Below, piece by piece: positions 18,944 through 33,647 of a stretch of 33,647 nt of DNA; the stretch's first letter is position 1, and each line of letters opens with the position of its first letter. Origin of the DNA: Oscillatoriales cyanobacterium PMM_0008 (GTDB lineage: Bacteria > Cyanobacteriota > Cyanobacteriia > Cyanobacteriales > Aerosakkonemataceae); the NCBI GenBank assembly GCA_949128025.1, contig CASBRD010000329.1, positions 1-33,647 of the forward strand. The letters are read 5' to 3'. A model generated the notes under the pieces. That model was not told the DNA's origin and did no database searches. It was given only the letters and a program-made list of their open reading frames with translations. Both the position numbers and the translations under genes were made by a program.

Positions 18944-19201
18944 ATGGCTAATGATGACCTGCTATCCCGCATCTCGATCGATCCAAATATCTGCTTTGGC
19001 AAGCCTTGCATTCGCGGACATCGCATTTGGGTGTCCTTAATTCTGGACTATTTAGCAGGTGGAATGACAATCGACGAGATTCTAGAGGCGTATCCCAGCA
19101 TTGAGCGAGAGGATGTGCTGGCTTGCATCGCCTATGGTGCTGAGATGGCGCGAGGCGGATGGATGGAAATTCCTCTAAATCGAGCCAAAGAAACGATATG
19201 A
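18944..19201 (+). CDS. DUF433 antitoxin
   Basis: An 85-residue DUF433 protein (ISIDPNICFGKPCIRGHRIW, then LAGGMTIDEILEAYPSIERE, then VLACIAYGAE), a winged-helix VapB-like antitoxin family. The Shine-Dalgarno GGGAGAAG precedes the ATG. Its stop overlaps the start of the DUF5615 toxin (ATGA). The pair is typical elsewhere, but here it lies inside the cas operon between a decayed cas3 fragment and cas3. Confidence 0.9.
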   Translation: MANDDLLSRISIDPNICFGKPCIRGHRIWVSLILDYLAGGMTIDEILEAYPSIEREDVLACIAYGAEMARGGWMEIPLNRAKETI

Positions 19202-19584
19202 ATATCAAGCTAGATGAAAACGTTGACTTGCGGATCGTCTCGCGTTTGCAAGTTGCAGGTCATAACGTGGCAACCGTGCCGGGACAGGGATTGAGTTCTG
19301 CTCCAGACAGGGAGGTGATTGAGGTTTGTGGAAGAGAGGGGCGATGCCTTGTCACAGCAGATCGAGGGTTCGGCAATCGCGCTCGATTCAACCCTGCTGA
19401 TTATGCAGGAATTGCGGTCATTCGCCTACCCGATCGCGCCTCGTTTACAGATTGGTGTAAGGCGATCGATACCTTGATTGCAGGCTTAGAGCAAGCGGAT
19501 GCGATCGGGAAACTCTGGGTTATCCAAAATAACAGGATTCAGGAATATCAACCAATTGAGCCAGAGGAAGAAGAGGATGAATGA
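19198..19584 (+). CDS. DUF5615 PIN-like toxin
   Basis: A 128-residue PIN-like (Mut7-C/DUF5615) nuclease: MNIKLDENVDLRIVSRLQVA with acidic D6/E7, GQGLSSAPDREVI, then CLVTADRGFGN with the second acidic cluster. These acidic residues match the metal-binding site of PIN-type RNases. It starts at the ATG overlapping the antitoxin stop. The C-terminus is acidic (EPEEEEDE), encoded just before and across the cas3 start, with an 8-bp overlap, so toxin and cas3 translation are coupled. Confidence 0.88.
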   Translation: MNIKLDENVDLRIVSRLQVAGHNVATVPGQGLSSAPDREVIEVCGREGRCLVTADRGFGNRARFNPADYAGIAVIRLPDRASFTDWCKAIDTLIAGLEQADAIGKLWVIQNNRIQEYQPIEPEEEEDE

Positions 19585-21799
19585 CGAGCAACTGTTTCCA
19601 GCTTACGGACTGAGCGATCGCTTCATCAACTCGATCGCACTTAAACCCGTTTACTCTTGTCCCGCGTCCGAAGTGCCAGAAGGCGTTCAGCTACCGGAGG
19701 GTTGGTCGCTTTCCTGGCATCAAGCCGCAACTTTGGAGGCAATACGCGACCCGAATATCGACGTTATCTTTAATACCGCCATGACGGGCGACGGCAAAAG
19801 TTTGGCAGCTTATCTAGAGACTTTACTGACAGACTTTTTGGCAATCGGTCTATATCCAACTAATGAACTTGCGCGTGACCAGGAAACCCAAATTCAGGAC
19901 TATATTACCAAATTTCAGCTTAAAATTAAGCCGCGTGTTGTGCGACTCAGTGGGCAACAATTAGAGATTTATGCTGAAAATGAAGGGCTAAAGAAAGCAG
20001 CGGCAATTGCTACTCGCACAGGACAAGCTGAAATCCTACTGGCGAACCCAGATATGCTTCACTACTTGCATCGAGGTGCATATTTAACTCGTGATGACAG
20101 TCCTGATAAGCTGTGGAACCGGATTGACAAAGATTTCGATCTATTCATTTTTGATGAATTTCATGTTTTTCAGGCTCCGCAAATTGCCAGCGCGATTAAC
20201 ACAATGCTGTTAATTAAAAATACGAATCGCCGCAAGAAATTTCTCTTTTTATCAGCAACCCCAAATAAACAACTGATAGAGAGATTAAGGTTATCTGGCT
20301 TTCGGTGCAAGGAAATTAACCCACTGGAGGAGAATAAATATCAGTTTCCAGATACAGAGGAGCAGTGTCAGCAACTGAAAGCAGAAGGATGGCGACAAGT
20401 ATCGCGAGAAATCTCTCTTCAGTTTATCTCCCTGGAACCAACTTCTAAAGCTTCTGAAACTTGGTTGAAAGAAAGCCGTAATCTCATCTTGGCTCACTTT
20501 CAGCAGCATCCAGGTAGCAAAGGGGCAATCATTCTCAACTCGATCGCAGCAGTGAAACGTCTGACGCCGTTCTTTCGAGAATTGCTGGCACCTCATGGTT
20601 TAGTAGTTGGCGAGAATACGGGCTTATCTGGTCAGGAGGAAAAAGCGCGATCGCTACAAGCTGACTTGGTTATCGGTACTAGCACAATCGATGTCGGCGT
20701 TGATTTCAAGATTAATTTTCTAATTTTTGAATCAGCAGATGCAGGTAGCTTCATCCAGCGGTTAGGACGTTTAGGACGGCATGACGGATATGAACAAAAT
20801 GGGCAAAATATTACTTTTGTAACTTTCACAGCTTACGCACTCGTACCCAATTTTCTAGTAGAAAAGCTGTTTCTCGGTGATTCGCCACCTTTAGAAGCAA
20901 GTAGCATCTATGACCGTTCCTTCTTTCACAATCAAATTCGTGACAATTACCGCCGAATCAATGATTTTGAAGGATATTACTCTCGCTGGGGTGCAGTACA
21001 GTCAATGCGGATTTGCCGACAGCTAGGACATAAGACAATTAAGCAGCAGTATGAAGGCAGTCAGAACGCATTTCAAACGGCTTGCGAAAAAGTGTTTAAT
21101 ACTAGCCTGAAAAAGGTGTTTGGTCTTAGCATGGCATGGGAAAGAGAGTGGCAACAACTCTCAGGTAAGGAAAAGGGAAATCCAATTACAGAAGATGCAG
21201 CAAGTTTTCGAGGGTCTAGTCCTCTTGGGTGCGGCATTTACGATCTAACAGAATCAAATGAGGCAGATAGGTTTAAAACTTACGATTTGCCAGGAATTTT
21301 GAGCAATCTGGAAATTGAAGTGATGACTAAAGAGGAGTTTATGCGATCGCTTCTCCAAACTGCTGAACGCATCGGACAACCCATCGCTAAAGGGCGATTT
21401 GCATACTGTCTCGCCTTCATGAAGTTACGGACATATCGGGAAGAACGGCTAAACTGGCGCTTTACCTATTCAGGCAAGTTGGATGCGATCGCAGATGCTT
21501 GGAAGGTTCAAGTTTTGAGAGGTATCGAGGTTTGGCAACCTGAGAACTATTGGATTGGTGAAATCAATAAGCGACTGAGGAAAGAAGCTTTAGTCAGTTA
21601 TGTGCTGCGTCGTCCGGTGGCGGAAGTGCGATCGCGCTTACGACTCCCCATGCACTTTGCGATTTACCCGATTAGCGACCAATACAGTTTTCACGATCCA
21701 ACTGCGCCTTATTCTATAGCGTTCAGCCAGTCCGCTTTACTGCTGGACACCCTTGCCTATTCGTTCAAAAGCAAAGGAGGCGAGATATGGATTGCTTAG
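19577..21799 (+). CDS. cas3: Type I-D CRISPR-associated helicase Cas3' (no HD domain)
   Basis: A 740-residue superfamily 2 helicase that unwinds and translocates target DNA after Cascade binding. Motifs: Walker A TAMTGDGKS (67-75, K74), YPTNELARDQ (93-102), DEFH (193-196), SATPN (226-230), GTSTIDVGVDF (367-377), QRLGRLGR (394-401). No HD nuclease motif is present, as expected for I-D where Cas10d carries it. The start MNDEQLFPAYG is chosen because it has a GAGGA ribosome binding site; the frame is open 26 codons further into the toxin gene. A degenerate CRISPR repeat begins 3 bp after the stop. Confidence 0.95.
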   Translation: MNDEQLFPAYGLSDRFINSIALKPVYSCPASEVPEGVQLPEGWSLSWHQAATLEAIRDPNIDVIFNTAMTGDGKSLAAYLETLLTDFLAIGLYPTNELARDQETQIQDYITKFQLKIKPRVVRLSGQQLEIYAENEGLKKAAAIATRTGQAEILLANPDMLHYLHRGAYLTRDDSPDKLWNRIDKDFDLFIFDEFHVFQAPQIASAINTMLLIKNTNRRKKFLFLSATPNKQLIERLRLSGFRCKEINPLEENKYQFPDTEEQCQQLKAEGWRQVSREISLQFISLEPTSKASETWLKESRNLILAHFQQHPGSKGAIILNSIAAVKRLTPFFRELLAPHGLVVGENTGLSGQEEKARSLQADLVIGTSTIDVGVDFKINFLIFESADAGSFIQRLGRLGRHDGYEQNGQNITFVTFTAYALVPNFLVEKLFLGDSPPLEASSIYDRSFFHNQIRDNYRRINDFEGYYSRWGAVQSMRICRQLGHKTIKQQYEGSQNAFQTACEKVFNTSLKKVFGLSMAWEREWQQLSGKEKGNPITEDAASFRGSSPLGCGIYDLTESNEADRFKTYDLPGILSNLEIEVMTKEEFMRSLLQTAERIGQPIAKGRFAYCLAFMKLRTYREERLNWRFTYSGKLDAIADAWKVQVLRGIEVWQPENYWIGEINKRLRKEALVSYVLRRPVAEVRSRLRLPMHFAIYPISDQYSFHDPTAPYSIAFSQSALLLDTLAYSFKSKGGEIWIA

Positions 21800-21801
21800 G
21801 G

Positions 21802-21838
21802 GTTTCGATCCCTGAAAGGGATTATTAGAATGCTAAAC
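21802..21838 (-). repeat. Degenerate CRISPR repeat, reverse orientation (psi-R1)
   Basis: On the plus strand GTTTCGATCCCTGAAAGGGA followed by TTATTAG is the reverse complement of the 3' two thirds of the array repeat at 33531, with one substitution (G for A) and one inserted A. The Cas6-type stem (AATCCCT/AGGGATT) is kept except for its last pair. The repeat's 5' part has decayed. It begins 3 bp after the cas3 stop. Confidence 0.8.
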
Positions 21839-21870
21839 ACTCTTTGGTGTAAGCAAGGAGGCTTTAACAC

Positions 21871-22029
21871 ATGAGACCAAGGACGGAATTTTCAATCCCT
21901 TTAGTAGGTATTATTGCTGTGTTGTTTTTAAACAGGTTACCCCCTAAAGAAATATTTAACCACAATAGCCCTCTTCTGTCAAACCAGGGCGAAACCCTTG
22001 ATTTTCCGTGGCAAAAATTCATAGTTTGA
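21871..22029 (+). CDS. Candidate small protein with hydrophobic segment inside the cas operon
   Basis: A 52-codon ORF, MRPRTEFSIPLVGIIAVLFL followed by NRLPPKEIFNHNSPLL and ending DFPWQKFIV. A perfect Shine-Dalgarno AAGGAGG (21855-21861) lies 9 bases before the ATG. A basic N-terminus, a short hydrophobic stretch (about residues 8-20) and a polar tail suggest a small membrane-active peptide. It lies between cas3 and the accessory genes. Codons 7-19 coincide with a degenerate CRISPR repeat on the other strand. A toxin role is conceivable by analogy with CreT but there is no direct evidence; a chance ORF is possible. Confidence 0.45.
   Translation: MRPRTEFSIPLVGIIAVLFLNRLPPKEIFNHNSPLLSNQGETLDFPWQKFIV
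21889..21925 (-). repeat. Degenerate CRISPR repeat, reverse orientation (psi-R2)
   Basis: On the minus strand the 3' end reads AAAGGGATTGAAAA, against CAGGGATTGAAAC of the true repeat. The preceding AATACCT can pair with AGGGATT over 7 bp with one mismatch around a 5-base loop, so both the hairpin and the 3' handle of the repeat are recognisable. The 5' part is decayed. It is about 50 bp from psi-R1. Confidence 0.55.
21954..21982 (-). promoter_or_regulatory. Minus-strand promoter upstream of the crRNA-like unit
   Basis: On the minus strand TTGACA (21982-21977) is a perfect -35 box, followed after exactly 17 bases by TTAAAT (21959-21954), a 4 of 6 match to the -10 consensus. The predicted start is near 21946, about 20 bases before psi-R2. 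Confidence 0.45.
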
Positions 22030-22344
22030 ACCCAAGATAACAGAAAAGGAGTAGTAGAGAAGCGCAAGTTAGACAAATGTTATTCAAGCCCACAAGACTT
22101 TCTGTGACGCTATACTTAGTGCATGACAAAAAGGCTTGAGGACTTGAGAGCAAGGTCAGAGATTCGCTAGACAGGCAAGTAAGCCTCTTCCGGCGTAACT
22201 TTTGGACTTTAGCCTAGACTCCTTAATGCAGTCTAGTAACCGGGGAAACCCAAATGTAGTTTTTGTCGAGTGACTAGGAGGTATAGACCCAGCACATAAG
22301 CTTTTTTCTCTACTGTCAAACTATTATTAGGAGGTTCATTAATC
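22030..22344 (+). other. Intergenic stretch with possible structured RNA and internal promoter
   Basis: No gene was recognised in these 315 bp. TATACT at 22111-22116 could be the -10 box of an internal promoter. Downstream, several stems can be drawn: AGGCTT (22132-22137) with AAGCCT (22181-22186), enclosing CTTG-AGAG-CAAG (22143-22154), then CTAGACT (22214-22220) with AGTCTAG (22230-22236). It ends with the ribosome binding site AGGAGG before the gene at 22345. It may be a structured leader of the accessory genes; no known riboswitch class was recognised. Confidence 0.35.
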
Positions 22345-22623
22345 GTGCTAAATCACGATACAGCCGTCCATAGTTTCTTGCGTCCAATTTTAGGCGATGT
22401 GCTCTATGAAAACAAGTTGCTTAAACAGCATATTGTCAAGCTAGAGCAGCGGCTAAGTTTACTGGAAGAACGAATGGATGAGCAGGATCTGCAAATTGAT
22501 TACACAGTAGGTAAGCTGAGGCAATACGAGTCGGTTATGGATGCTTACGAAAATCGCCATTACGAGCGGGAATTTAGCGAAAACTGCTATTCTCTGAATG
22601 GTGATGCCAACTGTAACTATTAG
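22345..22623 (+). CDS. Small coiled-coil protein, accessory gene in the type I-D locus
   Basis: A 92-residue protein from GTG 22345, supported by AGGAGG about 9 bases upstream. The middle is a strong coiled coil (LLKQHIVKLEQRLSLLEERM then DEQDLQIDYTVGKLRQYESV), and the C-terminus is polar with two cysteines. It may oligomerise or act as an adaptor. No known Cas family was recognised. It is the first of three unknown genes between cas3 and mntA, all in the operon direction. Confidence 0.65.
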   Translation: MLNHDTAVHSFLRPILGDVLYENKLLKQHIVKLEQRLSLLEERMDEQDLQIDYTVGKLRQYESVMDAYENRHYEREFSENCYSLNGDANCNY

Positions 22624-22707
22624 TTGCTCCGAAAACTGACTCCAATACATCACAGATCTGTCGGGTGCGTTATGCCATCACAACGTACCCACAGGTTCCT
22701 ATTAAAG

Positions 22708-23283
22708 ATGCCCAATCACTCGGAAGATCGAGAAGCTATACGCCAAATTCGTGAAATTTATGGAGCATTTTTAGAAAAGCCTGAAAATGCAGATTTGGCA
22801 AATCGCTTGAGTGCGATCGCACAAAAGTATAGACGGATAGCTGAGATGGAGGTTAATGCTGAAACAAACCCTTTCGTAGGCTTAGATCGCGAAAACCTGC
22901 TGATGGAAGCCGAGACTGAATTTGAGGAACTCTCCAGTCAAATAAAGGAAGCCTACGATCTGAATCTGTCGCCATCCGAACGGCAACTGTTCGAGGGGCG
23001 ATCGCAAGACGAAATCGATGAAATGCAAGAACTGATGAAACAATGGAGTCCAGCTACTTATGCAGATATTGCAGCAAGCATCCTCGACCACTCTTTTAGA
23101 AAGGATTACGACCCCTTGGAATATCTGCGTAACGCATCGAACTTCGATAAATCTAGAGCAATGCGAATTCCGCGCTTAGGTTGTAGTGAGGTAGGGACAG
23201 TGAGATGGGAGATTAGAAGCACTGGAGAATACCTGATTGAAACCCCAGAGGGTAAGACTGTCACCTATGGCTTCAATGATTAA
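22708..23283 (+). CDS. Helical hypothetical protein, accessory gene in the type I-D locus
   Basis: A 191-residue soluble protein, mostly helical and acidic in the first 130 residues (REAIRQIREIYGAFLEKPEN, then RENLLMEAETEFEELSSQIK), ending with a small beta-rich part (RWEIRSTGEYLIETPEGKTV). The ATG at 22708 is preferred. An open frame reaches a TTG at 22624, but it passes through a repeat-like GGGTGCGTTATG stretch. I do not recognise the family. Its role in the CRISPR locus is unknown. Confidence 0.65.
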   Translation: MPNHSEDREAIRQIREIYGAFLEKPENADLANRLSAIAQKYRRIAEMEVNAETNPFVGLDRENLLMEAETEFEELSSQIKEAYDLNLSPSERQLFEGRSQDEIDEMQELMKQWSPATYADIAASILDHSFRKDYDPLEYLRNASNFDKSRAMRIPRLGCSEVGTVRWEIRSTGEYLIETPEGKTVTYGFND

Positions 23284-23305
23284 GATAAATACTAACTAGA
23301 GGGTT

Positions 23306-23725
23306 ATGAACATGAAACAAAATGAAGTCGAAATCTTCGAGCGCAATCGACTTTCTGAGCTTAAAACTCGTTTGTTCGCTTACGAAAAAGCCATGAAAGA
23401 TGAACGACGTAAGCTATGGGAAACAGAAAAAGAATCGGAACAAGAATACACGGTTTGGAGCCAACTAGAACTTATTTCAACTTATATTTCCGGATACGTC
23501 AGCCAGATTGTTTCTTATGGCTATACACGCCAGGAACCTCGTGAAGCGATCGCTCACTTACACCAGATCAGTATCTTCGATATCGATTGCATTGTGGATT
23601 GGTATCGCAACTCAGGAGATGAGTATCCGAAAATTAAGCAGTTCTTCGAGCTTCTAGACTACATTCGTTTACTCACTCTAGAGTATATCGAGCGGTATCA
23701 GTTACTTGAACTGACACAAAAGTAA
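23306..23725 (+). CDS. Helical hypothetical protein, accessory gene in the type I-D locus
   Basis: A 139-residue all-helical protein (ERNRLSELKTRLFAYEKAMK at the N-terminus; REAIAHLHQISIFDIDCIVD in the middle; FFELLDYIRLLTLEYIERYQ at the C-terminus). It starts 22 bp after the preceding gene with a GAGGG ribosome binding site; the ATG at 23312 is an alternative. No family recognised. A HEPN-like helical bundle was considered, but no R-x4-6-H motif is present. Confidence 0.65.
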   Translation: MNMKQNEVEIFERNRLSELKTRLFAYEKAMKDERRKLWETEKESEQEYTVWSQLELISTYISGYVSQIVSYGYTRQEPREAIAHLHQISIFDIDCIVDWYRNSGDEYPKIKQFFELLDYIRLLTLEYIERYQLLELTQK

Positions 23726-23748: not shown

Positions 23749-24201
23749 ATGCCTAACAAGATACTAACATTGGAAAAACTTAAGACACTTTCTCCACAAC
23801 TACCAGAGAAAATCCCTTATCTCAAAATGCTGGTTCTATTCGGTTCTCGCGCCAGAGGAGATATCCATGCTAATAGTGACTGGGATTTTGCCGCTCTTTA
23901 CGATGAAGAAGTCCGTAAGGCTTACATAAAAGATAATGCTTGGGCTTGGTTTGAAGTAGCTCAAATACTTGGTGAGGTTTTGGAAATCAATCAAGAACAA
24001 ATTGATGTTGTTGAGTTGAATAATTGCTCGCTTCTAATTGCTCACTTTGTTGCTCGTGATGGCAAACTATTATATGAGAAAGAACCGGGTAAATTTACGG
24101 CTTTTCAAAAAAAAGCTTTCAAGAGCGATGTAGAAATGACAGCTATTCGCAGAGAGCTACGCCAGAAACTTGAGAAAAATTTGCAAAGGTGGGGAGTATG
24201 A
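23749..24201 (+). CDS. mntA: MntA-type minimal nucleotidyltransferase antitoxin
   Basis: A 150-residue minimal nucleotidyltransferase. The motif GSRARGDIHANSDWD gives G32-S33, ten residues, then D44-x-D46, and a third acidic residue lies in QIDVVEL. In HEPN-MNT modules this enzyme oligo-AMPylates the HEPN RNase next to its active site and silences it. The start of hepT overlaps its stop (ATGA). A HEPN-MNT module was characterised next to a subtype I-D CRISPR system in Aphanizomenon flos-aquae, so this association is known. Confidence 0.92.
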   Translation: MPNKILTLEKLKTLSPQLPEKIPYLKMLVLFGSRARGDIHANSDWDFAALYDEEVRKAYIKDNAWAWFEVAQILGEVLEINQEQIDVVELNNCSLLIAHFVARDGKLLYEKEPGKFTAFQKKAFKSDVEMTAIRRELRQKLEKNLQRWGV

Positions 24202-24644
24202 CAGTAATTGAGCCAGCGATAGTTTTAAGTAAACTAGATGCAATGATGAACTATCTAAATAACCTGAAGCGTTTTGAGTCTGTGACGTTGGAAGAGTATC
24301 TTGCTGATGATGACAAGCAGTTAATTGTAGAAAGATTGTTGCAGCTAATAATTCAGGTAGCAATAGACGTGAATCGATACTTGCTGAAACAATTAGGAAT
24401 AGAACCCCCAGAAAGTAACTATGCAAGCTTTATAGAAATTAGCCGTCAAGGTATTGTTACAACTGAGTTAGCAGAAATATTGGCGGCTTCGGGAAGTTTG
24501 CGAAATCGACTGGTTCACCTTTACGAACAGATAGATCCGGTACAAGTTCACGCGGCAATTCCGAGAGCTTTGCAGCATTATCCGGTTTATCAAAGACAAG
24601 TGACAGAATATTTAGATTCACTAGAGGTGGAAAATGGCGATTAA
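24198..24644 (+). CDS. hepT: HepT-type HEPN ribonuclease toxin
   Basis: A 148-residue HEPN (DUF86/HepT) protein with the catalytic motif R-x4-H-x-Y in LRNRLVHLY (R102, H107, Y109), preceded by the helical bundle. It acts as an RNase toxin whose tyrosine is AMPylated by MntA. The ATG overlapping the mntA stop is chosen; a GTG three codons upstream is less likely. Its 3' end overlaps the start of cas10d by 11 bp, so toxin and Cascade large-subunit translation are coupled. Confidence 0.93.
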   Translation: MTVIEPAIVLSKLDAMMNYLNNLKRFESVTLEEYLADDDKQLIVERLLQLIIQVAIDVNRYLLKQLGIEPPESNYASFIEISRQGIVTTELAEILAASGSLRNRLVHLYEQIDPVQVHAAIPRALQHYPVYQRQVTEYLDSLEVENGD

Positions 24645-27600
24645 GGGAAAAAAATCAGGCGAACAGGCTCGACATTTGTCTCTTTGGGATAGTGAGGAGG
24701 ATATAAATTCTGAAGAATTTGATGATGATGATGCTTGGAAATCTAGTGATAACTCAGATTTTGAGGAAACGAGCGATCGGACTATCGAATCCCAGTCTCG
24801 CGAGTTACTAACCCTCAAGTTACTGCGAGAGGCAATCCAGGCTCAGAATCCAGACGATCGCGTGATGAGCGACTTTGCAGAGTATGTATTACCAAATCTG
24901 CTACGGGTGGCGATCGGCGTTACAGCCAAAGGCGGTAAGTACTTTGATGAACTCGATCGCAAAAATGAAGCCGAAGGAAAAGATAGAGTTCGGCGGGATA
25001 ATGCAGGCGATCAATCGCTCAATACCCATTTGCTCAATGGATTGTTTCCAGCAAACTTAATTGAGCAAAGGTTAGAAAAACTCGATAGTACTGTGCGGCG
25101 AGTGGTGCGAGAACTGGAAAGGCGGATGGTAATTGCTGGGTTTATTCTGCATGATTTTGAGAAATTCCCCGATGTCCCGGCTGATTGTCGTAAGTTACCC
25201 TTAGAACAGCATCGTCAAATTATTGATGAAAAAGTTCGTCAGCTAGGTTTGGATCGCTTCATCAATGCTGATGAACCAGAAGCCTATCGAGAGTACCTAG
25301 ATGATTTGCTCTGTGTCGCTTATAACGCTCAACGACGTTGGGATACTAACTGGAATTTTTCAGAGTTTGGGCTAAATCCAGTTCTGCGCGATCGCACTCT
25401 CCGCACTCTTTCAGACTTAACTTGTTTAGCGGATTCTCTAGCTTCAATTATCAAACATCCCCAGGATGCTGAAAATACAAGACTAAATGAGTTAATTCAT
25501 AGCCTGAGTGATGGACAACTGAAATTCACTTACCACAGCATTGCTGAAAACAGAGGCGTACTCACCAACGTAGTGAATAACGCTTTGATGGAGGCGCACA
25601 TCAGCCTTAATACCGACGATTTCACCTACTACGAGCCACTACTTTATCTGCCAACTGGCGTCATCTACTTGGCACGACGAGACTCACCTTCCGTCCAAAT
25701 TGAAGATTTACCAAAACGGGTTGTAAGCAAGATTAAAGAATTCTGTGCAAGTCAACTGCGGCTGCGACAAACAGGCTTTGGTAGAGATGGCAAGGGGATG
25801 AAATATGCTGAATATTACAACCTATTTTTTGATGGCTCAGATTTAATGCAAGTTGCCCTTAGTGCCACACTAAGGATTCTAAATCCCACCAAAAACTCTG
25901 TTGCTAAAAGCCGCAGCGATAATCTCATCAAATTTCAGCAACAGGATGTTCTGTCGGCTGATTATAGTTTCAACTTTGATGACGATATTCGGATTGACCA
26001 AATTGCTGAATTTGGAGATTTAATCAGTCGCAAAATTTGGGGAGAACGAGTCGAGCGAATCGAAACCGAGCGCAAGAAGAACAAGAAACTTCCAGAATTA
26101 CCTCATCTAGATATTGTCGAAGAAATTGCTAACTTTTGGAACCTCTCAGAGTATTTACCGCCAATCCGGGAAATCCAGCGGATTAATGAAAGCCTGAAGG
26201 AACACAAACTAAAGGGCAACACTGGTGGCGTTCCCTATGAATGGTACTACTTAGCAGCAAAGTATTTGGAGTCTCACCCTGGTTTAAGTCCAGAGGATCT
26301 TCGTCAAATTTGTGAAGAAGCGATCGCACAAATTTCCCAACTCATTAAACCTATTGTTTCACAGTACGAACTACCTGATGGTTGGGATGATTTGCGACTA
26401 TGGGTAAAGCGAGTTGTCATGCTACCTGGAAAAGCGACATCTGCCACCGCATCTGCTGAAGTTTTCCTACAGGAGTTGTCAGGCTATCAGTTAGCTAAAA
26501 AACAGGGGAGAGGACGACAGCTAATTTGCTCTATTTCTCACTCTGCTTACACTGTCAAGGAACAGATGGAATCAGCGGTTTTATTTACTCCACAAGTTTA
26601 TACCAATAAGCAAATGTTGGGAGGTTCTAACGCTAAGCGCAACATTTCTAGCATTGCGGGTGTGGAAATGATGCTGCGGCAAATTCTGATGAATCAGACG
26701 CAGGCAGTTGGTAAGCGATTTGAAGATGGGAAATATCGCTACCTCTACTTTTACCCGACTTATTACTTCACTCCTGAAACGAATAAGTTTCTCCAAAAAG
26801 CTTACAGCGGCATCGCTCAGACTCGCTTTGATACTAGCATTCGCAATCATTTTATCAGTAAAGATTTGGAGGCTAATCTTGAGCGCGATCGCTATCAAAC
26901 TGTAGATGCTTTCTTGATTGATGAAGATTTGGAACGGAAGAAAAATTTGCCGGAAAAAGATCGGGAATTTAAACGCGATCGCACCTTCAAACTTTTCTAT
27001 CCCGACGACCAACCGCTGACATTTTACTTCATGGCATTGCCACCAGGGAAAGATCCAACCGATACCGAATCTTGGGTAATGCCAGCTTGGTTAGCTTTTG
27101 CCTTCCCAATGATTTTGGATGTCAAAACTGTTGTTTCGGAGTCACCTATTCCACCTTTCAATGATGGGGCAGAGTTTGAGGAGAGCGTGTTTCTCGACAG
27201 TGCGCCGCAGGCATTTCGGGTGTTGCTGGGGCGCGATCGCTTCCGGCTAGATTACATTCTAGATGGTTGGAAAGATGCGAACGGCATTAAACATCCTGCT
27301 CCTTTGAATGTTCTCACTGCTGCCTATGCAATACATTTAGATGTTAATGCCAAGCAAGGTAAGGGAGGATATGACGCAAACTGGGGCAGGTTGGCAGAAC
27401 TCGCGAGAGACTTTAAAACCAGTCCTCTCTATGTTTTTAGCTACCTTAAAGCCTTTACGCGCAATCAGAAAGTTGATGCTCCTAGCATCACCAAAATCAG
27501 GCTGTACGCCTATGACTTATACCCGTGTTTCGATCCTTATGTTGAATATCTTGAGGAATTAAGAGTGGACAAACAATCGCCTATTCATCACCCCAAAAAG

Positions 27601-28461
27601 TTAACAGAACTTTACCGGAAGTTCTATCGAGCTAAGTCTACAAAGGGTAAACTCACTAAGGCAAATGCGATCCTCAAACCGATTGATGAAGCAGCAGATG
27701 TCATTCTCAAGGCAGAGTTCAGTTCTTGCCGGGGTGAAACTCTAGTTGACTATGTAGCTGCACGGCTCTTTAGTTTAATGAATCGCGTTCATAGTTCGAC
27801 GGCTGAAGGTCGTTGGGTTTTCAAGAACAGCGAACGTGACCAGGAACGAGAAGCGATTCTTGACTTTGCTCGGTATTTTGTTTTGGAAGTATTTGAGGGG
27901 ACGTTTAAGGGCGATCGCGCTCATCTTGCGGGTCGCCAACTCAATCTGATCCGCGATACCAGTGAGTTTCTCTATCGCCTTGAAGATGACAAAGAACGCC
28001 GTGCGAGAAAGTTGACAGTTTTACTTCGGAAATTCTACCGAGTTAAAGTCACCGAGAAGGATCAGCTTAAAGCCAGCGTAATTGTGAAGCCGATCGACGT
28101 TGCAGCTAGTTCTATTCTCAAGGCCGAACCAAACTACCAACTTGAGAAATTGGTTCATAACGTTGCGGATGAAGTATCTGAACTTATGAGCGTAGTTCGC
28201 AAAGGTAATACGGAGGAACTTTCATTAATTGCGGATCGGGAGGAGGAAAGGCAAGAAATTATCATATTTGCTGAATATTTCGTAGTCGATCTGTTTTCTA
28301 AGTTTCTTCGAGGCGATCGCGTGCGTTTGCAAGGTCAATTAGACTCCATTAAGGAAGCTTGCGAATACTCTTATCGCCTAGAAGATGGCAAACAACATCG
28401 CCCCAAACAAGCTGTAACTGAGGATGAAACAGATGATTTACTTGAAGAGGAAGAAGAGTAA
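24634..28461 (+). CDS. cas10d: Type I-D CRISPR-associated Cas10d/Csc3 with HD nuclease and duplicated C-terminal module
   Basis: A 1275-residue large subunit of the I-D effector, which also carries the HD nuclease that cuts target DNA with Cas3. The N-terminal ~55 residues are acidic and low-complexity. The HD region includes THLLNGLF (131-138) and GFILHDFEKF (169-178; H173-D174). The palm-like Cas10 core occupies the middle. The C-terminus contains two tandem copies of a ~137-residue helical module (989-1125 and 1126-1258), then an acidic tail. Typical Csc3 proteins are nearer 1000 residues, so both the extra copy and the N-terminal tail are notable. Ribosome binding site GAGGTGG; the start overlaps hepT. 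Confidence 0.93.
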   Translation: MAIKGKKSGEQARHLSLWDSEEDINSEEFDDDDAWKSSDNSDFEETSDRTIESQSRELLTLKLLREAIQAQNPDDRVMSDFAEYVLPNLLRVAIGVTAKGGKYFDELDRKNEAEGKDRVRRDNAGDQSLNTHLLNGLFPANLIEQRLEKLDSTVRRVVRELERRMVIAGFILHDFEKFPDVPADCRKLPLEQHRQIIDEKVRQLGLDRFINADEPEAYREYLDDLLCVAYNAQRRWDTNWNFSEFGLNPVLRDRTLRTLSDLTCLADSLASIIKHPQDAENTRLNELIHSLSDGQLKFTYHSIAENRGVLTNVVNNALMEAHISLNTDDFTYYEPLLYLPTGVIYLARRDSPSVQIEDLPKRVVSKIKEFCASQLRLRQTGFGRDGKGMKYAEYYNLFFDGSDLMQVALSATLRILNPTKNSVAKSRSDNLIKFQQQDVLSADYSFNFDDDIRIDQIAEFGDLISRKIWGERVERIETERKKNKKLPELPHLDIVEEIANFWNLSEYLPPIREIQRINESLKEHKLKGNTGGVPYEWYYLAAKYLESHPGLSPEDLRQICEEAIAQISQLIKPIVSQYELPDGWDDLRLWVKRVVMLPGKATSATASAEVFLQELSGYQLAKKQGRGRQLICSISHSAYTVKEQMESAVLFTPQVYTNKQMLGGSNAKRNISSIAGVEMMLRQILMNQTQAVGKRFEDGKYRYLYFYPTYYFTPETNKFLQKAYSGIAQTRFDTSIRNHFISKDLEANLERDRYQTVDAFLIDEDLERKKNLPEKDREFKRDRTFKLFYPDDQPLTFYFMALPPGKDPTDTESWVMPAWLAFAFPMILDVKTVVSESPIPPFNDGAEFEESVFLDSAPQAFRVLLGRDRFRLDYILDGWKDANGIKHPAPLNVLTAAYAIHLDVNAKQGKGGYDANWGRLAELARDFKTSPLYVFSYLKAFTRNQKVDAPSITKIRLYAYDLYPCFDPYVEYLEELRVDKQSPIHHPKKLTELYRKFYRAKSTKGKLTKANAILKPIDEAADVILKAEFSSCRGETLVDYVAARLFSLMNRVHSSTAEGRWVFKNSERDQEREAILDFARYFVLEVFEGTFKGDRAHLAGRQLNLIRDTSEFLYRLEDDKERRARKLTVLLRKFYRVKVTEKDQLKASVIVKPIDVAASSILKAEPNYQLEKLVHNVADEVSELMSVVRKGNTEELSLIADREEERQEIIIFAEYFVVDLFSKFLRGDRVRLQGQLDSIKEACEYSYRLEDGKQHRPKQAVTEDETDDLLEEEEE
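27565..28461 (+). CDS. cas11d: Predicted internal translation product: small subunit Cas11d
   Basis: Within cas10d, in frame, a GTG at 27565 (residue 978, before DKQSPIHHPKKLTELYRKFY) follows GAGGAA (27553-27558) with suitable spacing. In other type I-D systems the small subunit is made by independent translation from the 3' end of cas10d. This start would give a ~298-residue protein with two module copies, about twice the single-module size. Prediction from sequence only. Confidence 0.6.
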   Translation: MDKQSPIHHPKKLTELYRKFYRAKSTKGKLTKANAILKPIDEAADVILKAEFSSCRGETLVDYVAARLFSLMNRVHSSTAEGRWVFKNSERDQEREAILDFARYFVLEVFEGTFKGDRAHLAGRQLNLIRDTSEFLYRLEDDKERRARKLTVLLRKFYRVKVTEKDQLKASVIVKPIDVAASSILKAEPNYQLEKLVHNVADEVSELMSVVRKGNTEELSLIADREEERQEIIIFAEYFVVDLFSKFLRGDRVRLQGQLDSIKEACEYSYRLEDGKQHRPKQAVTEDETDDLLEEEEE

Positions 28462-33530: not shown

Positions 33531-33647
33531 CTGGAAATCGACTAAAATCCCTTTCAGGGATTGAAACTATTTAAAAGCTCGTAAAAGTTACCGCAATTCA
33601 GAAGCTGGAAATCGACTAAAATCCCTTTCAGGGATTGAAACCTTGTC
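33531..33647 (+). CRISPR. CRISPR array, leader-proximal end (continues outside the window)
   Basis: Two identical 37-bp repeats (33531-33567 and 33605-33641) begin CTGGAAATCGACTAAAATCC and end CAGGGATTGAAAC. The core AATCCCT-TTC-AGGGATT forms a 7-bp hairpin for Cas6, leaving an 8-base 3' handle ATTGAAAC. One complete spacer of 37 bp (33568-33604) and six bases of the next are seen. The orientation, same strand as the cas genes, follows from leader position and the repeat 3' end. Confidence 0.97.

Follow-up and report, generated by a model that had tools for sequence, protein, structure and literature searches.

The BECR RNase toxins include colicin D and the CdiA-CT toxin of Escherichia coli O32:H37 (PDB 8ey4), the latter described as a colicin D-like RNase that depends on EF-Tu (PMC12585627). 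Each is paired with an immunity protein. In polymorphic toxins a tip is swapped behind a common effector or linker, the immunity gene lies next to it and a secretion or trafficking domain is present, while type II toxin–antitoxin systems are characterised by adjacent co-directional small genes that are kept together, the toxin not being kept without its antitoxin and the antitoxin being able to stand alone, and by a toxin that arrests growth and is neutralised through binding of the antitoxin protein. HEPN-MNT (HepT-MntA) modules are two-gene toxin–antitoxin units in which the antitoxin gene comes first and the antitoxin is an AMPylating one. The CreTA, CreR and CrePA systems place a degenerate repeat pair in a cas locus, with an adjacent short guide-target match and a PAM, which is the CreA/CreR RNA design (PMC8501985, PMC9458426, PMC12737573); these three papers make no mention of subtype I-D or of cyanobacteria. 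Published PAMs of type I-D are GTN and GTH, and mismatches are allowed at every sixth base (PMC10212523). The I-D review, which leaves open what controls these operons and which signal is involved, makes no mention of toxins or CreA.

The cas3'-csc3 slot and its genes

The window, i.e. the whole stretch of DNA that was analysed (33,647 nt from Oscillatoriales cyanobacterium PMM_0008), contains a complete cyanobacterial type I-D operon. Its variable slot is bordered on the left by type I-D cas3' (19499..21799, plus strand; TIGR03158, 389.9 bits) and on the right by csc3 (cas10d; 24634..28461, plus strand; TIGR03174, 1116.5 bits). Three genes designated ORF1, ORF2 and ORF3 lie in it on the plus strand, between cas3' and a HEPN-MNT module consisting of mntA, the adenylyltransferase antitoxin (23749..24201, plus strand; NF047752, 86.7 bits, cut-off 60), and hepT, the HEPN RNase toxin (24198..24644, plus strand; NF047751, 102.8 bits, cut-off 60). 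The gene order continues with csc3, csc2, csc1, cas6d, cas4d, cas1 and cas2, and a CRISPR array with the repeat CTGGAAATCGACTAAAATCCCTTTCAGGGATTGAAAC starts at 33531..33647 (plus strand). Upstream of cas3' there is a further toxin–antitoxin-like pair, DUF433 and DUF5615 according to Pfam (18944..19584, plus strand).

A first-pass annotation of the same DNA had placed three in-line genes of 92, 191 and 139 residues between cas3' and mntA, and these coordinates and sizes are confirmed. ORF1 (22345..22623, plus strand; 92 aa, GTG start) is the coiled-coil leader of the slot and carries the C-terminal motif CYSLNGDANCNY. ORF2 (22708..23283, plus strand; 191 aa from an ATG, with an open frame that could be extended upstream to a TTG at 22624) is the predicted toxin, and ORF3 (23306..23725, plus strand; 139 aa) the predicted antitoxin. 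Good ribosome binding sites had been claimed for all of them; plausible ones are present at ORF1 (AGGAGG) and ORF3 (AGAGGG) but none is clear at ORF2. The absence of any recognisable Cas family was borne out, as none of the three proteins reaches a cut-off in Pfam or NCBIfam, PHROGs and PADLOC gave no convincing match, the family libraries returned coil-like chance matches only, and a profile-based sequence search of the PDB found no match for these unrecognised proteins. A PADLOC assignment of ORF3 to Cas12a (16 bits, coil) was dropped.

We consider ORF2-ORF3 to be a toxin–antitoxin cassette that stems from a polymorphic toxin and whose toxin is probably a BECR RNase, and would put the probability of this at roughly 0.8. 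The sequence comparisons that point to it concern conserved pairing, one-sided loss, cassette borders, polymorphic-toxin context and purifying selection. Such a reading names a protein family pair that has no Pfam entry and would illustrate the recruitment of a toxin used in bacterial warfare, together with its immunity gene, by a CRISPR operon. Like the adjacent mntA-hepT, the pair would be a two-gene toxin–antitoxin module housed in the I-D slot, but the proteins of the two modules are unrelated, and neither the antitoxin-first order nor the AMPylating antitoxin of MntA-HepT has a counterpart in ORF2-ORF3.

Pairing, borders and probable origin of the ORF2-ORF3 cassette

When the ORF2 profile was scanned over one genome per species (84,980 species), it matched 44 loci, all of them cyanobacterial. 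ORF3 stands directly behind every intact ORF2 in this set, mostly overlapping it (few to 25 nt), and is absent from four loci, in all of which ORF2 is truncated or frame-broken. A phylum sample of 292 genomes gave the same picture, with ORF3 in 24 genomes and ORF2 in 15, all 15 of which also carry ORF3, leaving nine with ORF3 alone; at one lone ORF3 (L059) the last ORF2 residues are still in frame ahead of it. The genome to which the window belongs has a second ORF2-ORF3 pair (contig C344) as well as an orphan ORF3 (contig C81). ORF2 and ORF3 are thus adjacent, co-directional small genes that are kept together, and their one-sided loss, in which ORF3 alone is common and intact ORF2 is never alone, is the pattern expected of a toxin (ORF2) and its antitoxin (ORF3). 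No ORF2 was found in plasmids or viral contigs, and no ORF3 in phages. As a separate observation, one orphan ORF3 (L048, 5892-7731, genome G193) is lodged amid two PIN-like toxin/antitoxin pairs.

According to the first-pass annotation, absence from all other I-D loci would have spoken against its reading of these genes. They are not absent: two I-D loci from other families have ORF2-ORF3 at this position, a third locus has ORF3 without ORF2, and relatives of ORF1 occur in further I-D slots. In G304 (family f44) the cassette lies in the cas3'-csc3 gap with 85% (ORF2) and 82% (ORF3) identity to the window and without mntA-hepT; in G444 (family f11) it lies in the same gap (72% and 75%), after an mntA that lacks hepT (L246, 6604-7050). 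The block common to the window and G304 begins 8 nt ahead of ORF2, ends at the stop codon of ORF3 (22700..23724, plus strand; 83.7% nucleotide identity by blastn) and is flanked on both sides by unrelated slot DNA, the left-hand homology between the two loci stopping at 21822, within the repeat copy behind cas3'. In G293, a member of the same genus, ORF3, mntA, hepT and csc3 are 94, 91, 99 and 97% identical to those of the window at the amino acid level, homology is absent from 21829 to 23300, and the place of ORF1 and ORF2 is taken by other DNA that holds a small HTH-like gene. The treatment of ORF1-ORF3 as one operonic unit was dropped, since G304, G293 and G444 break the set up: ORF1 is a unit separate from ORF2-ORF3, contrary to the grouping of the three genes in the earlier annotation. 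Comparison with the G304 copies, which belong to another family, gave dN/dS values (Nei-Gojobori) of 0.13 for ORF2 (dS 0.57) and 0.10 for ORF3 (dS 0.98), and together with the ORF1 relatives in other I-D slots these make ORF1-ORF3 more than chance open reading frames.

The distribution of the pair bears on what it does for the operon. Most copies lie outside CRISPR loci and share no common neighbours that we could see; at all of the 44 ORF2-profile loci, the 6 kb examined contained neither the window's cas genes nor its mntA-hepT. These facts, and the sharpness of the cassette borders, are what would be seen if ORF2-ORF3 were a selfish toxin–antitoxin hitch-hiker in a gap where the operon tolerates it, with no effect on CRISPR function; yet the I-D copies form the closest set by identity, come from three families and always sit in the same slot, which in many loci holds other toxin–antitoxin genes. 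We regard the hitch-hiker as a possibility to be taken seriously, if a somewhat improbable one, and as the whole cassette was found in three I-D loci only, a CRISPR-tied role is not proven.

The same distribution weighs heavily against ORF1-ORF3 serving the I-D effector or MntA-HepT as accessory subunits or regulators, roles of a kind that the first-pass annotation had named among the possibilities. The shared strand, the tight spacing with mntA and csc3 and the restriction of ORF1 relatives to I-D slots would fit this, but nearly all ORF2-ORF3 loci lack I-D or mntA-hepT, the G304 cassette does without mntA-hepT, and most I-D loci are without ORF2-ORF3, which makes such a role very improbable. 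A subunit of the I-D effector would be found in most I-D loci, and ORF2-ORF3 as effector subunits were dropped because they occur in few I-D slots. The earlier guess of a tie to toxin–antitoxin biology came close, with the amendment that ORF2-ORF3 appear to be a toxin–antitoxin cassette in their own right and not regulators of mntA-hepT.

The origin of the cassette is suggested by a locus in genome G452. A frame of 326 aa is there 56% identical to the window ORF2 over 167 residues, while the part ahead of this is 80% identical over 210 residues to the C-terminal half of an effector of 896 aa that is encoded 4 kb upstream. That effector bears a calpain protease domain (9e-19) and has a tip of a different kind, and an ORF3 relative (57%) comes after the 326 aa frame. 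Judged by this layout, the G452 pair is an orphan toxin/immunity cassette of a predicted polymorphic toxin. The surrounding region (L247, contig C50, 88-8626) is a polymorphic-toxin locus that also has duplicated 159 aa genes. The swapping of a tip behind a common effector or linker, with an immunity gene next to it, is therefore seen in the G452 relative and not in the window gene, which is free-standing and presumably cytoplasmic, has only a helical N-terminus and a toxin domain, with no secretion or trafficking domain, and retains part of the linker only. Residues 26-82 of the window ORF2 match the linker of the full G452 effector (37%, E 2e-6), so that the extended N-terminal part of the I-D copies appears to be a relic of this linker; it is missing from most other ORF2 genes, which are short (about 115 aa).

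Predicted folds of ORF2 and ORF3

The structure prediction and structural search that had been proposed for these proteins were carried out. The AlphaFold2 model of ORF2 (27 sequences, pLDDT 93.9) comprises a three-helix linker (residues 1-87) and a helix plus four-strand domain (89-191), in the latter of which helices are placed at 121-131 and 136-144 and strands at 152-154, 165-169, 174-178 and 184-189; ORF3 is modelled as a confident all-helical bundle (pLDDT 92.2). The earlier description of the genes as helical accordingly holds for ORF3 and for the N-terminal part of ORF2, but not for the C-terminal domain of the latter.

As predicted, this domain resembles 8ey4 and colicin D. Foldseek placed chains of 8ey4 and colicin D at ranks 1, 2, 6 and 8 (colicin D at 2, 6 and 8; each with E about 1), and in VIA 8ey4, at Z 7.6 (a scale on which values under 8 may reflect a common arrangement), rmsd 2.0 A and 70 of 88 residues, was alone on the C-terminal domain among the 50 matches listed. 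Taken alone, neither the Foldseek E of 0.68 nor the VIA Z makes the fold match significant. The likeness appears to extend to the predicted fold of residues 117-191, with its order of helix, helix and four strands, to a conserved His and C-terminal Ser/Thr, and to the adjoining putative immunity gene. Residues invariant across the ORF2 family include His128, Arg141, Asn145, Phe146, Tyr187, Gly188 and Asn190. Colicin D has K608, H611, S677 and W679 as its catalytic residues; His128 and the conserved Thr/Ser186 would match His611 and Ser677, and Tyr187 would stand in place of Trp, a mapping made only by order along the chain. Lys608, on the other hand, has no equivalent, its position being occupied by Ile125, which is not basic; the ORF2 profile is not detectably related to colicin D in sequence (hhalign, not significant, probability 0.3%); and the window ORF2 differs from both toxins in lacking secretion and receptor domains.

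The weak fold scores and the missing Lys608 equivalent leave some room for ORF2 being a toxin that does not act as an RNase and whose colicin D likeness is superficial. We find this doubtful, as 8ey4 stands out on the domain, colicin D chains rank high and both the strand order and the conserved His and Ser/Thr seem to agree with colicin D. Under the BECR RNase reading, ORF2 would be a cytoplasmic toxin with a C-terminal colicin D-like domain, probably cutting tRNA or some other cellular RNA, and its helical linker would be inherited from the parent effector. ORF3 would be the helical antitoxin derived from the gene next to that effector, probably binding and blocking ORF2. Its fold search gave generic helical bundles only (Z up to 9.2) and matched no known immunity protein, ORF3 being unlike those compared, and for this reason no family is claimed.

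Exchangeable genes, ORF1 and the mini-CRISPR of the slot

Exchangeable toxin–antitoxin genes and other small genes concentrate in the cas3'-csc3 slot, a hot spot whose contents vary between loci and include mntA-hepT, DUF433/DUF5615, DUF1016, RAMA-domain, HTH-like and coiled-coil proteins. As toxin–antitoxin genes are often present in this slot of cyanobacterial I-D loci, a cell that lost the operon or shut it down would be penalised, and the ORF2-ORF3 pair, with its inferred addiction role, may contribute to this in the window.

As for ORF1, relatives of 61-109 aa with the same C-terminal YSxxGxAxCN motif occur in I-D slots of other genomes, the versions being YSLNGDANCN (window), YSLDGDARCN (G193), YSLDGDAYCN (G199), FSQDGDAICN (G195), YSNDGTAVCN (G207) and YSNSGTANCN (G066), and other I-D slots open with motif-less coiled coils or unrelated small proteins. 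A single-sequence search gave weak matches only, one of which, in the G193 slot, is real by its place. The family profile had six strong matches in the 292 genomes, all in I-D slots; since all six are profile seeds, the informative part is the absence elsewhere. By these comparisons ORF1 is a coiled-coil first gene of the slot, of a family found in this slot only. Its likeliest role is that of a regulator or adaptor expressed from the promoter of the slot, a guess that goes by place, which together with the motif is the only clue to its function.

Two degenerate CRISPR repeats are found behind the cas3' stop codon in most cyanobacterial I-D loci, approximately 70-90 nt apart and antisense to the operon (L149-L185, L201-L212). 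In the window this two-repeat mini-CRISPR is decayed: a good psi-repeat adjoins the cas3' stop codon (21802..21838, minus strand, antisense to the operon; 22-nt core with one mismatch to the CRISPR repeat of the locus), and a second, more degenerate one, TTTTCAATCCCTTTAGTAGGTATTATTG (21889..21916, minus strand), frames a spacer-like stretch with it. In most other loci the corresponding stretch has its match 74-252 nt downstream, immediately ahead of the first slot gene. With a score demanding a seed of at least 9 nt, free positions 6, 12 and 18 and a GT PAM, such a match was found in 30 of the 38 I-D loci and in 13 of the 16 independent guide groups. Foreign guides gave one in 5 of 1218 tests, and shuffled guides none at 9 nt or more. 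The PAM was GTT in 23 and GTC in 15 of 41 matches, and position 6 was mismatched in 34 of them. The window is among the eight loci without a match, 30 of the other 37 having one, and no convincing target was found in the whole window at seven guide offsets. The target site of G304 has seed mismatches, and G444 has one good repeat only.

With a degenerate repeat pair in the cas locus and an adjacent short guide-target match with a PAM in most I-D loci, the mini-array looks like the CRISPR-repressed regulators of the CreA/CreR type, though repression in I-D is putative and the window differs in having no target found. The slot and its mini-CRISPR, which are conserved across cyanobacterial I-D loci, bear on the question of I-D operon control raised at the outset. 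If I-D Cascade and the mini-array RNA, which would be crRNA-like and begin with the handle ATTGAAAC, silenced the slot promoter, an anti-CRISPR or the loss of Cascade would free ORF1 and the toxin cassettes and stop the cell in the manner of CreTA and CrePA. Consistent with this are the presence of the mini-array behind cas3' in most I-D loci, the excess of GTT/GTC targets over the foreign-guide tests and the concentration of mismatches at position 6, which fits the every-sixth-base rule of I-D (PMC10212523). Nevertheless, the window has no target and a decayed second repeat, the loci with ORF2-ORF3 (n = 3; the window, G304 and G444) are those with weak mini-arrays, and autorepression of the csc genes, as by CreR, explains the same data without any toxin. 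CRISPR control is attractive for the slot in general and unproven for ORF1-ORF3, and we rate such a repressed guard as rather unlikely.

Its wider form, in which mini-CRISPR-directed Cascade would silence the exchangeable slot as a whole, and both its first gene (ORF1 or one of several unrelated small proteins) and the toxin–antitoxin cassettes, in the window a putative domesticated tip of a polymorphic toxin, would be freed when Cascade fails, seems to us unlikely. It would extend the logic of CRISPR-controlled toxin–antitoxin systems to I-D, a subtype for which no report was found in the literature consulted here, and would make ORF1 a new kind of CRISPR-repressed protein. Across the loci in which the slot hot spot was seen (L149-L185, L201-L212 and L246), the type of guide seems to correspond to the type of the first gene.
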